Below, piece after piece: positions 26,766 to 39,944 of a stretch of 40,117 nucleotides of DNA (within the stretch, counting starts at the first letter, position 1; the number at the start of each line of letters is the position of its first letter). The translations under genes were made by a program, and so were the position numbers. The stretch lies in assembly GCA_020850355.1 (NCBI GenBank), contig JADZEX010000053.1, forward strand, positions 1 through 40,117, given 5' to 3'. Under the pieces are notes generated by a model that saw nothing but the letters and a program-made list of their open reading frames with translations, searched no databases and was not told the origin of the DNA. The DNA comes from Fimbriimonadaceae bacterium. Its GTDB lineage: Bacteria; Armatimonadota; UBA10988.

Positions 26766-26932
26766 CCAACGTCCTGCCACGCCGTCGTTCACAGGTCGGT
26801 AACAGCCAGGCGCGCCGCGCAGCGTATCTACCCAAGACGGCCTCGCGCCACCGGGCAGGCCCCGGCGCCGGCGCGGCGAAACGAATCGCTGGACTCCTTG
26901 GTTGATCTGCGGTGAGTGGGAGGACGGGCACG
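26766..26932 (+). other. 167-base intergenic region before the Clp-like gene
   Basis: It contains no ORF with coding character. A weak TATCTA near 26825 could be a -10 box but lacks a matching -35. I see a short GC-rich palindrome (CCGGCGCCGG) but no T tract, so no terminator is called. A GGGAGG ribosome-binding site lies at 26918-26923. Confidence 0.35.
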
Positions 26933-29101
26933 ATGGCGGCGACGGACGGACCGGCGGTGACGCCGCTGGCGCGAGCCTACCTGGCGACGGTTGAACGGCT
27001 CTTCGAGAGCGATCCCTGCCCGCACCTGGGCGTGCAGCACTGGCTGCGCACGCTGCTGGTGAAGTACCCGGCGCTGCTTCCGGCGCTCTCGCCGCAGTGC
27101 GACCTGCTGCTGGAAGAGGTCAACGTGGCCCTCGGCCGGCGCGAGCCCGGCCCCGCGCTGAGTGCCGCCACGCTGGTTGAGCAGGCGCTCCCCCGGATGC
27201 AGAGTCGGGGCACCGCGGCGGTGGACCTGGACGACCTGGCGGCGGCGGTGCTGGTTGCCGCCGGCTGGCAGCTCGGCGCCGACCCGGCGCCGGCGGCGGC
27301 CGTGGTGGCCAGCCTGGGCAGTGTGGCGGCGCCGTCGGCCAGCGCGCCGGGCTACGACAGCGTGGAGCCGCTGGGCGAGACGTTGCGGCAGTTCGCCGTC
27401 GACCTGACCGTCGCCGCCCAGGCAGGCGAGCTGGCGCCGGTGGTCGGGCGCGACGACGAGATTCAACTGGTGATGGAGGTGCTCTGCCGCACCACCAAGC
27501 GCAACCCCGTGCTGGTCGGCCCGGCCGGCGTCGGCAAGACCGCCATCGTTGAAGGGCTGGCCCAGCGGCTGGTCCGTGGCGAGGTGCCTGACCTCCTGCG
27601 GGACCGCCGGCTGCTGTCGCTGCCGGCCGCCAGCCTCTCGGCCGGCGCGCGGATCGTCGGTGACCTCGAAGCCCGGGTGCAGGCGGTGCTACGCGAGGCC
27701 GAAGCGGTCAACGCGATCCTCTTCATGGACGAGATTCACACCGCCGTGGGGGCCGGGGCCGCCTCCAGCCACCCCACTGGCGATGTCGCCAACCTGCTCA
27801 AGCCAGCCCTCGCCCGCGGCGCCATCGCCCTGATCGGCGCCACCACCGACGGCGAGTACCGCCGCTTCGTCGAGCCCGACGCGGCGCTCGAACGGCGCCT
27901 GCAGCCGGTCCGGGTGAACGAGCCGACGCTGGCCCAGACGCTGGTGATCCTGCGCCGCACGCGGGACCATTTGGTCGCCAAGCGGCAGGTCAGCGTGTCG
28001 GACGAGGTGCTGGCGTGGCTGCTCGACTTCAGCAGCCGCACGATGGCCAACCGCTTCTTCCCCGACAAGGCGATCGACCTGCTGGAGCAGTGCCTCGCCC
28101 ACGCGCTGGCGCGGTCGGCCAAAGAGGTCACCCTCGACGACGCCACGGCCGTGGCCCAACGCGTCGTCGGCATGCCCACCGAGCCGACCCAGCGGATCGC
28201 CGCGCTGTCGGCAGTGCTCGGCGAGCAGGGCTTGGTGACGGCCAGCGAGGCGACCGATCTGGAACGCCGCCTGCAGGTGACCCTGCGCGGGCTGGACCTG
28301 CACCCCAGCCGTCCGAACGCGGTCGTGCTGGCCGTCGGGCACGCCGCCGTGCAGGCTGGGATGCTCGCCGCCGGTATCGCCGAGGCGCTCTTCGGCAACG
28401 CCGAACGGGTGGTGCGGATCGATCTCGCCGGCCTGACCGAAAACCACTCACTGAGCAGCCTGATCGGCTCCGGTCCGGGCTACGTCGGGTACAGCGACCA
28501 GTTGCCGCTGCACCAGGTCGCGCAGACGCCGTGGTGCGTCCTGCTGCTGACCGACTTCCACCTCTGCGCCTGGGAGGTCCGCAGCTACCTCACCACCGCC
28601 CTGGCAGCCGGTTACTGCACCCTCGCCGACGGGCGCCGGGTCTACCTCTCGGATGCGCTGATCTTGCTGACCGCCGGATTCGGCGAGCAGGAGACCACCG
28701 CCGTCGGCTTCCGCCAGAACACCACCGCCGCGCCGGTCGATCTGCGGCAGCAGCTTGCCAAGCAACTGACGCCAAGCCTGCTCGAGCAGATCGACGTGAT
28801 CCTGGCCGGGCCGGACGAGAGCCTGGCCGACAACCAGGCGAAGGCCACGCGCCGGCTGCTGACCACCTTGGCCAGCCGCTACGCGGCACAGCGGCTGGAG
28901 GTCGTTTGGGACAACTCGCTGGTCGCCTGGCTGGCCCAGAAGACCATCGGCGCGCCCGGCCCGCGGAGCAACGAGCGGCTGCTCGAAGAGCAGGTCGCCC
29001 CGCTGTTGATCGCCCACCTGCCCGGCTCGCAAGCCCCGCTGGTGCAGGTCCTGGTGGCGGTCGACGAGCAGGGCAAGGTGCAGGTGCGACGCCACGAGTA
29101 G
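26933..29101 (+). CDS. Clp/Hsp100-like AAA+ protein with an inactive second ATPase domain
   Basis: A 722-residue ClpA/ClpC-like protein. The ATG at 26933 is preferred over GTG 26912 because GGGAGG lies 9 bases before it. An unusual N-domain (about 10-110) precedes D1. D1 is intact: GRDDEI, Walker A GPAGVGKT (196-203), Walker B ILFMDEIHT with Asp266 and Glu267, and an ERRLQP arginine-finger segment. D2 keeps the GPGYVGY pore region, but its P-loop position reads GHAAVQAG (469-476), so the lysine and following Ser/Thr are gone, and the Walker B reads LLLTDFHL (Thr540, Asp541) instead of DE. D2 should therefore not hydrolyse ATP. The linker is short, unlike the ClpB M-domain. No ClpP-docking loop is evident. 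It stands alone 167 bases after the kinase gene and converges on the isomerase gene. Confidence 0.9.
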   Translation: MAATDGPAVTPLARAYLATVERLFESDPCPHLGVQHWLRTLLVKYPALLPALSPQCDLLLEEVNVALGRREPGPALSAATLVEQALPRMQSRGTAAVDLDDLAAAVLVAAGWQLGADPAPAAAVVASLGSVAAPSASAPGYDSVEPLGETLRQFAVDLTVAAQAGELAPVVGRDDEIQLVMEVLCRTTKRNPVLVGPAGVGKTAIVEGLAQRLVRGEVPDLLRDRRLLSLPAASLSAGARIVGDLEARVQAVLREAEAVNAILFMDEIHTAVGAGAASSHPTGDVANLLKPALARGAIALIGATTDGEYRRFVEPDAALERRLQPVRVNEPTLAQTLVILRRTRDHLVAKRQVSVSDEVLAWLLDFSSRTMANRFFPDKAIDLLEQCLAHALARSAKEVTLDDATAVAQRVVGMPTEPTQRIAALSAVLGEQGLVTASEATDLERRLQVTLRGLDLHPSRPNAVVLAVGHAAVQAGMLAAGIAEALFGNAERVVRIDLAGLTENHSLSSLIGSGPGYVGYSDQLPLHQVAQTPWCVLLLTDFHLCAWEVRSYLTTALAAGYCTLADGRRVYLSDALILLTAGFGEQETTAVGFRQNTTAAPVDLRQQLAKQLTPSLLEQIDVILAGPDESLADNQAKATRRLLTTLASRYAAQRLEVVWDNSLVAWLAQKTIGAPGPRSNERLLEEQVAPLLIAHLPGSQAPLVQVLVAVDEQGKVQVRRHE

Positions 29102-35183: not shown

Positions 35184-35212
35184 GTTGTAGCATGGTCGGC
35201 GGCGGGTGTCAA
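35184..35212 (-). promoter_or_regulatory. Consensus sigma70-like promoter of the large-hydrolase operon
   Basis: On the minus strand TTGACA (35212-35207), a 17-base spacer and TACAAC (35189-35184). The -35 box is a perfect consensus, and the TGA stop of the TOPRIM-like gene (35211-35209) lies inside it. The predicted start is near 35177, about 15 bases before the GTG at 35162. This separates the hydrolase operon from the nuclease/TOPRIM-like pair upstream. Confidence 0.7.
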
Positions 35213-35769
35213 AGGGCGGTGGGACGAACGAAGTCGCCCGCTTCGCGCAAGGTGTGCAGGGCCTGGATCAGCTCCAGGCAGAAGCCGGTCTGCCGTAACT
35301 CGGCCAGCACGTCGGGCTCAGTATCCAGGATCCGTAAGAGTCGCTCGGGACCGCTCGCGAACCGCGGGTTCAGCAGCCCCAGCGCCTCCCCAGGTTGTAG
35401 TGACGCGAACCGCCTGGCGATCGGTGTGTCGAGCGCCGGCAAGTGGCGCTGGACAAAGACCGGCGATTCGAGGTAGCAGGCAGCCATCTCAGGGACCGCC
35501 AGCACCACGGCCAGTTGGTCCGGTCGGCCCTCCGCCAGCGCGCAGATCCCACGGCGTTCGTGAGCGGCTGCAGCCACGTCGGTGGTCCCGGCATCGACCA
35601 CCAACAGCACGCGCTGTTCGCGCAGCACCACTTTGCTGATCGCCCGCGAAACGGCGTCCGAACGAGTGCCGCAGGCGATCATCTCAAGGCCGGCTGCCAG
35701 CCCTCCCAGGAGGCGCTCCAGAAGGCCGCGGTCGGATTCGGAGGCGCAGAGGACGAAGAGGCCATTCAT
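35209..35769 (-). CDS. Degenerate TOPRIM-like protein, partner of the PD-(D/E)XK protein
   Basis: A 186-residue protein of unknown function. Its N-terminus, LFVLCASESDRGLLERLL, and RVLLVVDAGTTD (53-64) resemble a TOPRIM fold of OLD/RloB or DUF3226/DUF4276 type, where the strands read VEGxSD and VVDADxxD. Here the first catalytic Glu position reads Ala (CASESD) and the DxD reads Asp59-Ala-Gly61, so metal binding would be lost. A later VPEMAACYLES (92-102) matches the family block usually written VPExEaWlLaD, also lacking the Glu. It starts at ATG 35769, 6 bases after the nuclease-like gene. It could act as a structural or sensing partner of the nuclease. The TOPRIM assignment is pattern-based and needs a profile search. 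Confidence 0.72.
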   Translation of the reverse strand: MNGLFVLCASESDRGLLERLLGGLAAGLEMIACGTRSDAVSRAISKVVLREQRVLLVVDAGTTDVAAAAHERRGICALAEGRPDQLAVVLAVPEMAACYLESPVFVQRHLPALDTPIARRFASLQPGEALGLLNPRFASGPERLLRILDTEPDVLAELRQTGFCLELIQALHTLREAGDFVRPTAL

Positions 35770-35775
35770 GAGTCG

Positions 35776-36450
35776 TTACCCCGGTAGACGGTCGCTGGGA
35801 CCGCAGTCTTGCCACTCCGCGAGGTTTGCATCGGGCACGCCTTTGTCGACAGCTTGCCGGTACTTCCACAGCAGGCCAGCCACCAGCCCGCCGCGTTCAG
35901 GATGCTGCAGCGCCGTCTCGATGTCCTGACTGGTCCAGAGGAGCACCGTGATTGGCGCCAGGCTCCGCGAGAGCACCCGACACGGCTGGGTGAAGCCCGC
36001 CGGGCTGAACACCGCGCCAATCACGCCCGCCGGCCGCCGCATCAGGCGAGCCACCAGCTTCGCCACCGGCTCGATGTCACTCTCGACAGCACGGCTCTTG
36101 GTCTCAAAAAGGCAGGACAAGGGCGGCAGGTGCACTCCCCCGTCGATCTGCTCCACTGCCCGGCTGCTCCCAGCTCCGACCGCATCGGCCTCGCTCACGC
36201 CGAAGGGCCAAACAACCCGCGAAGTCGCGCTGCTCAGCCAGCTCATCCCGGCCGCACCGCTGCTGGCTGCCGGCCCCAGGTCAAGCTCGAACCCGCGGAC
36301 GATCAAGAACTCCAACAGCACCGCCGGGTCTGCGCCAGGAGCGCCGCCGGGTGCTGGCCTCGACGCGGCTACCGCCACCCGTACGGCGTCCAGAACCTGC
36401 GCGTGGTCGCGACAGCGCTGCACCGTCTGGTAGTACTCGGCCGCTCTCAT
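35776..36450 (-). CDS. PD-(D/E)XK nuclease-like protein
   Basis: A 224-residue protein. Start: ATG 36448-36450; the frame is open upstream to 36606, but those codons are Pro/Gly/Arg-rich and look non-coding. Asp103 (EQIDGG) is followed after 12 residues by Glu116-Thr-Lys118 (LFETK), the D...ExK core of the PD-(D/E)XK fold, then VAKLVARLMRRP and GVIGAVFSPAGFT, which match the alpha-beta part of a restriction-endonuclease-like domain. An N-terminal helical region (1-55) precedes it. Residues 199-210 (QAVDKGVPDANL) form a conserved-looking tail. No methyltransferase is nearby, so it is not an ordinary type II system. It forms an operon with the TOPRIM-like gene. G+C is lower here (58% in 36061-36120, 67% in 35461-35520). 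Confidence 0.75.
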   Translation of the reverse strand: MRAAEYYQTVQRCRDHAQVLDAVRVAVAASRPAPGGAPGADPAVLLEFLIVRGFELDLGPAASSGAAGMSWLSSATSRVVWPFGVSEADAVGAGSSRAVEQIDGGVHLPPLSCLFETKSRAVESDIEPVAKLVARLMRRPAGVIGAVFSPAGFTQPCRVLSRSLAPITVLLWTSQDIETALQHPERGGLVAGLLWKYRQAVDKGVPDANLAEWQDCGPSDRLPG

Positions 36451-37687: not shown

Positions 37688-38647
37688 ATGGCGGCCATCC
37701 GAGCGGCGGTGCTGGGGTGCGGGGCGATGGCCAACCGGGTCCACTACCCGGCGCTGGCCGACCTCCCGGAGATCGACGTCGTGGCCTGCTGCGACCTCGA
37801 CCCGGCGCGCTGCCGCGAGACCGCCGAACGCTGGCAGATCCCCGCGCAGTTTGCCGACTATCGGCAGATGGTCGAGCAGACCGCGCCCGACGTGGTCTAC
37901 GCCATCGGCCAGCCGCACCAGCTCTACGACGCCTGGGTCTGGCTGCTGCAACAGGGCCGGGCGCTGTTCATCGAGAAACCACTCGGGCTCAACCTGCACC
38001 AGGCGCGGGCGTTGACCTGGCTGGCCGAGCGGCACGACTGCCTGACCCAGGTCGGCTTCCAGCGCCGCTGCTGCCCGCTGTTGGTGAAGCTCCGCGACGA
38101 ATGCCTCGCCCGCGGCCCGCTGACCCACGTCGTCTGCCGCTTCTACAAGTGCGACGCCCGGCCCTTCGTCGGTCCGCGCGACCATCTGCTCGACGACAGC
38201 GTGCACGGCCTCGATACCCTGCGCTGGCTGGGCGGCGAGGTGGTCGCCATTCATAGCCAGTGCCGGCGGGTCGGCACCCCCGACATCAACTTCGTCGCCG
38301 CGCTGTTGGAGTTCGACACCGGCGTCACCGGCGTACTGCTGAACAGTTGGACCAGCGGCCGGCGGATCTTCGACGTCGAGCTGCACGCCCCGGCGATCTG
38401 CGCCGAGATCGACCTGGAAGGCCTCGGCACGGTCTACGCCGACGGCGACACGACCGGCGTGGCCTGGCACACCCACGACGTCGCCGGCAGTGATCAGTTC
38501 TACATCCACGGCGGCTTCCGGGCGAAGCACGCGGCCTTCGCGGCGCAGTTGATCGCTGGGCAGCCCGGCGGCTCTTGCTTCCGCGATGCCTTGCGCACGA
38601 TGGAGTTGGCGGAGCGCATCCTGGCGCAGGACCTGCTGCACGGGTGA
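37688..38647 (+). CDS. Gfo/Idh/MocA-family oxidoreductase
   Basis: A 319-residue cytoplasmic sugar oxidoreductase. It has a Rossmann motif GCGAMANRVH (10-19), catalytic Lys in EKP (96-98), and His173/Asp176 (SVHGLDTLRW). It is short for the family because the C-terminal domain is trimmed. Several cysteines (QRRCCP, CRFYKCD) are unusual but show no clear metal pattern. Start: ATG 37688, with a weak GGG before it. It lies 6 bases after the kinase and 16 before the fucosidase, so the three genes form one operon. It probably oxidises or epimerises the sugar that the fucosidase and kinase handle. Confidence 0.91.
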   Translation: MAAIRAAVLGCGAMANRVHYPALADLPEIDVVACCDLDPARCRETAERWQIPAQFADYRQMVEQTAPDVVYAIGQPHQLYDAWVWLLQQGRALFIEKPLGLNLHQARALTWLAERHDCLTQVGFQRRCCPLLVKLRDECLARGPLTHVVCRFYKCDARPFVGPRDHLLDDSVHGLDTLRWLGGEVVAIHSQCRRVGTPDINFVAALLEFDTGVTGVLLNSWTSGRRIFDVELHAPAICAEIDLEGLGTVYADGDTTGVAWHTHDVAGSDQFYIHGGFRAKHAAFAAQLIAGQPGGSCFRDALRTMELAERILAQDLLHG

Positions 38648-38663
38648 GACGAGAGGGACGGAC

Positions 38664-39944
38664 ATGAGTACGGGTATCGCCCGCTTCGGCGACGGCCGCG
38701 ACTGGTTCTTCGAAGCTCGCTATGGGCTGTTCATCCATTGGGGCCTGTATGCCATCCACGGCTGGCACGAGCAGGAACAGTGGCGCGGCCGGGTGCCGGC
38801 CGCCGAGTACGTCAAGCTGCAGGCCGCGTGGAACCCCACCGCCTTCGATCCCGACGCCTGGCTGGATCTGCTGGCCGAGGCTGGGATGCGCTATCTCTGT
38901 GTGACCACCAAGCACCACGACGGGTTCTGCCTCTGGGACACCCAACAGACGCCGTTCAACACGATGAACACCCCCTACGGCCGGGACATCATCGGGCAAC
39001 TGGCCGCCGCCTGCCACCGCCGCGGGGTGCCGCTCTGCCTCTACTACAGCGTCGCCGACTGGCACCAGCCGAACTACCCGAACCTCGGCCGACACCACGA
39101 ACTGGCCGCGCCGAAGCCCGGGGACGAGCCCGATTGGGACCGCTACATGCTCTTCCTGAAGGCCCAGGTGCGCGAGCTGTGCAGCAACTACGGTGAGCTG
39201 CACGGCTTCTGGTGGGACATGAACGTCCCGGAGCATCTCGACGAGTCGGTCAACGCGCTGATCCGCGAGTTGCAGCCGCAGGCCGTGATCAACAACCGCG
39301 GCTTCGATCCGGGCGACTTCGGAACCCCGGAGCGCGACTATGAGCAGGACCCCGCCCGCAGCTTCGACACCCCGGTCGAGGCCTGTCAGTCGGTCGGCCT
39401 GGAGAGCTGGGGCTACCGCGCCGAGGAGAGCTACTACACCGACGGCCACCTGCTCCGCAGCCTTGACCGCTACCTGGCCCGCGGGGCCAACTACCTGCTG
39501 AATGTCGGCCCCCGAGCCGATGGCAGCATCCCGCCGGAGAGCGCGGCGATCCTGCGCCGCCTCGGTGCCTGGAAAGCCGCGGTTGGCGAAGCCTTCACCG
39601 CCACGCGGCCGGCGTCGCACCTCGTGCCGAACCCGCAACTGCTGCTGACCGCCCGCGACCGCACGCTCTACGTGCACCTGGTCGGCCCAATCGGCGACAG
39701 CGTCAAGCTGAAGCCGCTGACCACTGCGCCACTGCGCGCCACGCTGCTCAACGACGGCCGGCCAGTCGCCTGGGCCACCAACCTGGCGCCTACCGACCAC
39801 CTCGACCAGACCGGCTACCTCCGCCTCTGCGGCCTGCCGGCCAACGAGTACGCCAACAGCGTGATGGTGATCAAGCTGGAGTTCGCCGAGCCGCTCCAAG
39901 GTCCGCCGACTGCCACGACCGGCGACGACCTCCGCGTGCGCTGA
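38664..39944 (+). CDS. GH29 alpha-L-fucosidase
   Basis: A 426-residue GH29 enzyme. The fold begins WFFEARYGLFIHWGLYAIHG (FIHWG at 23-27), with HHDGF at 84-88, YYSVADWH near 127-134, and the nucleophile Asp185 in FWWDM, the position of the usual WFD motif. NYLLNVGPRADGSI is the family's C-terminal barrel signature. The beta-sandwich after residue 310 is present but short. No signal peptide is visible, so it acts on imported fucosylated oligosaccharides in the cytoplasm. It removes alpha-linked L-fucose from glycans. Start: ATG 38664, following GAGAGGGACGG. It is the third gene of the kinase/oxidoreductase/fucosidase operon. Confidence 0.95.
   Translation: MSTGIARFGDGRDWFFEARYGLFIHWGLYAIHGWHEQEQWRGRVPAAEYVKLQAAWNPTAFDPDAWLDLLAEAGMRYLCVTTKHHDGFCLWDTQQTPFNTMNTPYGRDIIGQLAAACHRRGVPLCLYYSVADWHQPNYPNLGRHHELAAPKPGDEPDWDRYMLFLKAQVRELCSNYGELHGFWWDMNVPEHLDESVNALIRELQPQAVINNRGFDPGDFGTPERDYEQDPARSFDTPVEACQSVGLESWGYRAEESYYTDGHLLRSLDRYLARGANYLLNVGPRADGSIPPESAAILRRLGAWKAAVGEAFTATRPASHLVPNPQLLLTARDRTLYVHLVGPIGDSVKLKPLTTAPLRATLLNDGRPVAWATNLAPTDHLDQTGYLRLCGLPANEYANSVMVIKLEFAEPLQGPPTATTGDDLRVR

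Follow-up and report, generated by a model that had tools for sequence, protein, structure and literature searches.

A conserved gene pair of an Mrr-type nuclease and a TOPRIM-like partner in Armatimonadota, probably a small two-part nuclease system

Background

Mrr-type nucleases are recognised by the catalytic fold of Mrr_cat (PF04471) and by a D-(E/Q)xK motif, and glutamine is common at the E/Q position of these enzymes. TOPRIM domains known from bacterial immunity are nucleases fired by ATPase sensors, as in the OLD family (Gabija GajA and the class 1-3 OLD proteins; PF20469, DUF3226) and in PARIS, where the ATPase AriA works with the separately encoded TOPRIM protein AriB. The AriB Toprim mutant E26A no longer causes tRNA-dependent ribosome stalling (PMC12409363), and a TOPRIM domain deprived of a catalytic acid is therefore not expected to cleave. 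For BREX-related systems it has been proposed that catalytically dead nuclease domains are kept for sensing (PMC12839542).

Here we analysed a pair of genes in a Fimbriimonadaceae bacterium. The window, that is the whole stretch of DNA under analysis, is an entire contig of 40117 bases from an assembly totalling 6.67 Mb. The features of the pair are:

35776..36450, minus strand: nuclease gene, ATG start, 224 aa; Mrr_cat-like PD-(D/E)XK protein with E47, D103 and E116-x-K118
35770..35775, minus strand: gap of 6 bp between the nuclease stop and the TOPRIM start; relatives mostly have a 4-bp overlap instead
35209..35769, minus strand: TOPRIM-like partner gene, ATG start, 186 aa; E9->A, D61->G and E96->A, with D13 and D59 kept

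The pair resembles each of the described systems in part. The nuclease has the catalytic fold and motif of Mrr, and its relatives score above the Pfam cut-off, whereas the window protein itself falls below Pfam detection, is accompanied by a TOPRIM gene dedicated to it and has no reported Mrr_N domain. The partner shares its fold with the OLD-family TOPRIM, the C-terminal regions of OLD proteins being its five best PDB matches, and its intact relatives share the OLD motifs; unlike those proteins it stands alone with neither an ATPase domain nor an ATPase gene, is coupled to an Mrr nuclease and has lost catalytic acids. As in PARIS, the TOPRIM protein is encoded by a separate gene adjoining its partner, but that neighbour is a nuclease, an AriA-like ATPase is absent, and a single weak AriB match (0.0071) was obtained among the relatives. 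Among the models of the defence library, the TOPRIM relatives matched HEC-01B (6e-7) and MAD4 (PADLOC mad4, about 6.6e-6 to 1e-5; NCBIfam NF047734) best, whereas the window protein matched neither and lies outside any multi-gene defence neighbourhood; HEC-01 was compared by its HEC-01B component alone. The BREX-related systems offer a precedent for an inactive nuclease domain kept as a sensor, although in them that domain is an REase fused to a helicase, whereas in the present pair the inactive domain is a TOPRIM protein with its own gene and the REase next to it looks active. Neither PADLOC nor the literature within reach of our search, which covered a minority of subscription papers and preprints, describes a stand-alone TOPRIM protein coupled to an Mrr nuclease without an ATPase, and the search returned no papers on DUF3226, HEC-01 or MAD4.

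The locus and its neighbours

A sequence-only reading of this DNA had described two adjacent minus-strand genes 6 bases apart (36450-35776 and 35769-35209), with no ATPase and no methyltransferase beside them, and both statements hold. A longer nuclease ORF of 276 aa (start 36606) is probably an overextension, since the relatives align from the ATG at 36450. The neighbours of the pair in the window are metabolic genes: a Gfo/Idh oxidoreductase and a 1275-aa cellulase/apiosidase-like (GH-like) protein are encoded downstream, and a GHMP kinase, another Gfo/Idh oxidoreductase and an alpha-L-fucosidase are encoded divergently. The window pair has no ATPase gene beside it, nor do the ORFs viewed around five related loci (L011-L015) include one, and the window flanks lack the cognate methyltransferase that a type I-III restriction-modification nuclease would have. 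Defence genes were likewise absent next to the pair, in the window and in the relatives' loci viewed, so the suggested enrichment near such genes was not seen there. Scans around the locus for promoters, terminators and repeats gave nothing above chance, and a tRNA search around it found none. Elsewhere in the window (26912-29101, plus strand) lies an AAA/ClpB-like double ATPase with a weak PADLOC match to PDC-M37B (4.9e-9); it adjoins a PAS histidine kinase-response regulator hybrid and is probably ordinary.

The pair had also been read as an acquired module of lower local G+C. The lower G+C is real but mild: overall values are 0.67-0.70 in the pair and 0.71-0.76 in most of the surrounding DNA, with an equally low value at 38600-39500. 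GC3 is 0.80 in both genes and about 0.89-0.93 in the neighbour genes, a mild sign of different ancestry. Furthermore, the GHMP-kinase locus lacks the pair in three genomes of the same family (G214, G215 and G216), in G214 the pair is located elsewhere than in the window, and the two genes flanking the window pair are not neighbours of each other in relatives. The mildly lower GC3 and the pair-free GHMP-kinase loci thus lend weak support to a recent acquisition, and the different position in G214 together with those loci fits mobility, of which it is no proof.

The nuclease subunit

The first gene product had been credited with the D(103)...E-x-K(116-118) core of restriction-like nucleases, and this assignment was confirmed. 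Its motifs read EQID103GG and FE116TK118, with E47 as the glutamate of the preceding helix. In the full-length alignment with relatives, E100-Q-x-D103-G and K118 are invariant, and motif position 116 is occupied by E or Q. The window protein itself has no Pfam or PADLOC match and its relatives match no PADLOC model, but direct homologues exceed the Mrr_cat cut-off of 21 bits (Leptolyngbya 36.2 bits, Rhizobium 26 bits), and a profile built without the window sequence recovers the window nuclease at E 2.5e-42, whereas none of 2000 shuffles does better than E 0.28. A PDB sequence search with the nuclease alignment gave no meaningful match. For the AF2 model (pLDDT 76.8, with the loop 83-102 just before the catalytic D poorly modelled) the best Foldseek matches in the PDB were the restriction enzymes MspJI, HindIII and the BspD6I nickase, MspJI, the match that bears on type IV (modification-dependent) restriction, ranking first but with a low TM-score (0.28). 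The Mrr_cat-matching relatives and the restriction-endonuclease fold match bear out the PD-(D/E)XK assignment, and judged by homologues and model the window nuclease is probably a member of an Mrr_cat subfamily. More distant plasmid Mrr nucleases (Roseomonas, Sinorhizobium, Sulfobacillus) have no TOPRIM partner annotated next to them, which indicates that the TOPRIM association marks a subfamily.

The fold search also returned repair nucleases (2vld, EndoMS) and the pair lies among metabolic genes, as would suit a role in DNA repair or DNA processing instead of defence. We regard such a role as very improbable, as the profile match is to Mrr_cat, and repair genes are not usually so patchily distributed, borne on plasmids or fast to diverge as this pair.

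Other Mrr-type genes were encountered in the phylum. One Armatimonadota contig (L026 1498-3012, minus strand; G122:C3) encodes a 504-aa fusion of a retron-type RT (PADLOC RT-TIR_XII, 7e-119, residues 16-337) with a C-terminal Mrr_cat domain (3.2e-5, residues 360-468); RTs related to it carry TIR, protease or TOPRIM effectors, and the protein is possibly an unlisted retron effector fusion. In another (L027 431-3389, minus strand; G191:C56) a gene for a 323-aa Mrr-like nuclease lies between type I specificity-subunit-like and TIR-domain genes. The window's own genome has on a different contig (L038 and L039; G000:C81) two separate DNA-methyltransferase-like ORFs, each with an Mrr_cat-type domain at its end.

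The TOPRIM partner

The window TOPRIM-like protein itself matches no family and no PADLOC model. Its homologues weakly match DUF3226 and OLD-like_TOPRIM, and a profile built without the window sequence scores the window protein at E 2e-13 (best of 2000 shuffles, E 0.38). A PDB sequence search with the TOPRIM alignment yielded no meaningful match. In the AF2 model (pLDDT 82.4) strands and helices alternate in TOPRIM order, and the top five PDB matches of the model are all TOPRIM domains of OLD nucleases (E 2e-3 to 8e-3, probability 0.99-1.00), with modest TM-scores of 0.44-0.47. Model and matches agree with the TOPRIM assignment of the sequence-only reading. A match of this protein (P0002) in a further genome (G043, locus L004) was set aside as probably due to chance: it is short (residues 99-142 in the C-terminal part, 45% identity, E 1.4e-4) and falls in a DUF1549/1553-like protein ('RFASLQPGEALGLLN').

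The acidic catalytic positions had been read as changed, and in the window they are: the motifs are LCA9SESD13, D59AG61TTD and PEMA96A, where intact relatives have VxE9GxxD, DAD and PxxE96. We infer that E26 of AriB corresponds to the motif glutamate lost in the window. The residues at TOPRIM positions 9/13/59/61/96 are:

Window: A/D/D/G/A
G275: E/Y/N/E/A
Leptolyngbya (two copies): D/D/D/D/A
Rhizobium: E/D/D/D/A
G039, G047 and G214: E/D/D/D/E, all intact

Heavy motif loss occurs only in the window and G275, three more sequences show partial loss, and the motifs are intact in three lineages, a pattern that rests on about eight pairs. Consequently, the proposal of a catalytically dead TOPRIM stands for the window copy, in which three acids are lost, but not for the family, since 3/8 sequences keep every motif residue. 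One of these is G214, which belongs to the same GTDB family as the window and is its sister in the nuclease tree (support 90/88), and therefore the loss in the window looks lineage-specific. The nuclease D and K are invariant, whereas the TOPRIM acids have been lost from some pairs and are intact in the rest; what the TOPRIM subunit retains throughout is therefore most likely a non-catalytic role. At the level of these sequences, this suggests that the conserved role of the subunit is largely one of control, binding or assembly.

The retention of all TOPRIM motif acids together with the nuclease motif in G039, G047 and G214 might also reflect an ancestral double nuclease, in which both subunits cut, at two targets or on two strands, and lineages like that of the window came to rely on the Mrr site alone. 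This seems improbable to us, given that 5/8 TOPRIM sequences are without at least one motif acid and the gene pairs nevertheless persist.

Conservation and distribution of the pair

The sequence-only reading had named a failure of the two genes to be kept together in other genomes as grounds for rejecting it, and they are kept together. Among 291 Armatimonadota genomes, strong matches to the nuclease subfamily were found in five (the window's own genome G000, G039, G047, G214 and G275), and strong TOPRIM matches in exactly the same five, always adjacent, on the same strand and with the nuclease first. The plasmid TOPRIM gene lies beside the nuclease in 3/3 records (two Leptolyngbya plasmids and one Rhizobium plasmid), and the pair is co-conserved across three phyla. 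The gene junction is a 4-bp overlap at three loci (L013, L012 and L014), an overlap of 23 bp at another (L015) and the 6-bp gap in the window. Thus the two genes are a real, conserved module. Weak and partial matches that were unpaired among the matches listed (TOPRIM in G176 and G087, nuclease in G084 and G226) were left uncounted. A search of genome contigs with the window TOPRIM protein gave no match, the A1 search returned only three Armatimonadota (Armatimonadetes MAGs), all already found, and a further search for relatives within the phylum added nothing. Viral contigs and phage records held no match to the pair, so that phage carriage is unsupported.

Some copies are broken. In G047 the nuclease is split and a TGA lies within the TOPRIM gene. 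The pair on plasmid3 of a Leptolyngbya strain (L016 4983-6021) has an open TOPRIM frame but a nuclease gene disrupted by a frameshift and stops; this strain also has an intact nuclease, about 70% identical to the broken one, on its plasmid1.

Such broken copies raise the question of decay, namely that an active pair was acquired, that the TOPRIM catalytic site was lost first and that selection on the window locus has since become weak or ceased. The very long TOPRIM branch of the window (3.5 changes per site, against 1.5 for the nuclease), the intact TOPRIM of the sister G214 and the sporadic occurrence of the pair (5/291 genomes) point the same way. Nevertheless, both window ORFs are of intact full length with coding-type codon-position GC, the nuclease has kept all of its catalytic residues, the model of the TOPRIM fold has good confidence, and partial TOPRIM loss recurs where the ORFs are intact (G275, Rhizobium, Leptolyngbya plasmid1). 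We therefore consider decay unlikely.

Slightly less likely still is an arrangement akin to toxin-antitoxin systems, in which the Mrr nuclease would be a self-toxic DNase and the TOPRIM protein its cognate inhibitor, stabilising plasmids or islands. Two small coupled genes, presence on plasmids, the lack of a modification enzyme and a TOPRIM protein needing no catalysis would all suit it, but the effector precedes the putative inhibitor, a less usual though known order, and a full TOPRIM catalytic site in relatives is unexpected for a pure inhibitor.

Proposed function

The recurrence of the pair in a number of unrelated bacteria makes it probable that the two genes form a small nuclease system that is so far undescribed and whose target is perhaps foreign DNA. 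The reading we prefer, with a probability of about one half, is one two-subunit nuclease module, an Mrr effector with a TOPRIM partner in a non-catalytic role, most likely restricting the foreign DNA of phages or plasmids. The Mrr-type PD-(D/E)XK subunit would be the metal-dependent effector that cleaves DNA, and the TOPRIM subunit, produced in concert from the ORF that follows, its dedicated partner, which would bind the nuclease in a complex and control or target it. The partner may hold the nuclease inactive or assemble it, and/or may bind a nucleic acid or nucleotide ligand and thereby release it. As there is no host methyltransferase, control would have to lie with the TOPRIM partner, or the system would have to recognise DNA that is modified or foreign in some other way. 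The case for a role in defence against mobile elements is indirect and draws on the kinship of the domains, the small size of the module, its carriage by plasmids, its patchy occurrence and its fast divergence; in addition, the TOPRIM relatives match the defence models HEC-01B and mad4, and distant Mrr nucleases of the phylum occur next to HsdS-like and TIR genes or in fusion with a retron-type RT. Against it stand the absence of defence genes next to the pair at the loci viewed and the lack of a PADLOC match for the nuclease.

More tentatively, and with the odds against it, the pair could represent a widespread, undescribed class of two-gene immune nucleases without an ATPase: a TOPRIM pseudoenzyme, its nuclease fold repeatedly turned into a sensor or regulator, would control an Mrr-type nuclease. 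If so, the TOPRIM fold would be revealed in a controlling role, in a protein that has repeatedly shed its own catalytic acids and whose neighbour is a distinct, active-looking nuclease. At about 1.2 kb the module is very small, and the idea is directly testable with two proteins and point mutants.
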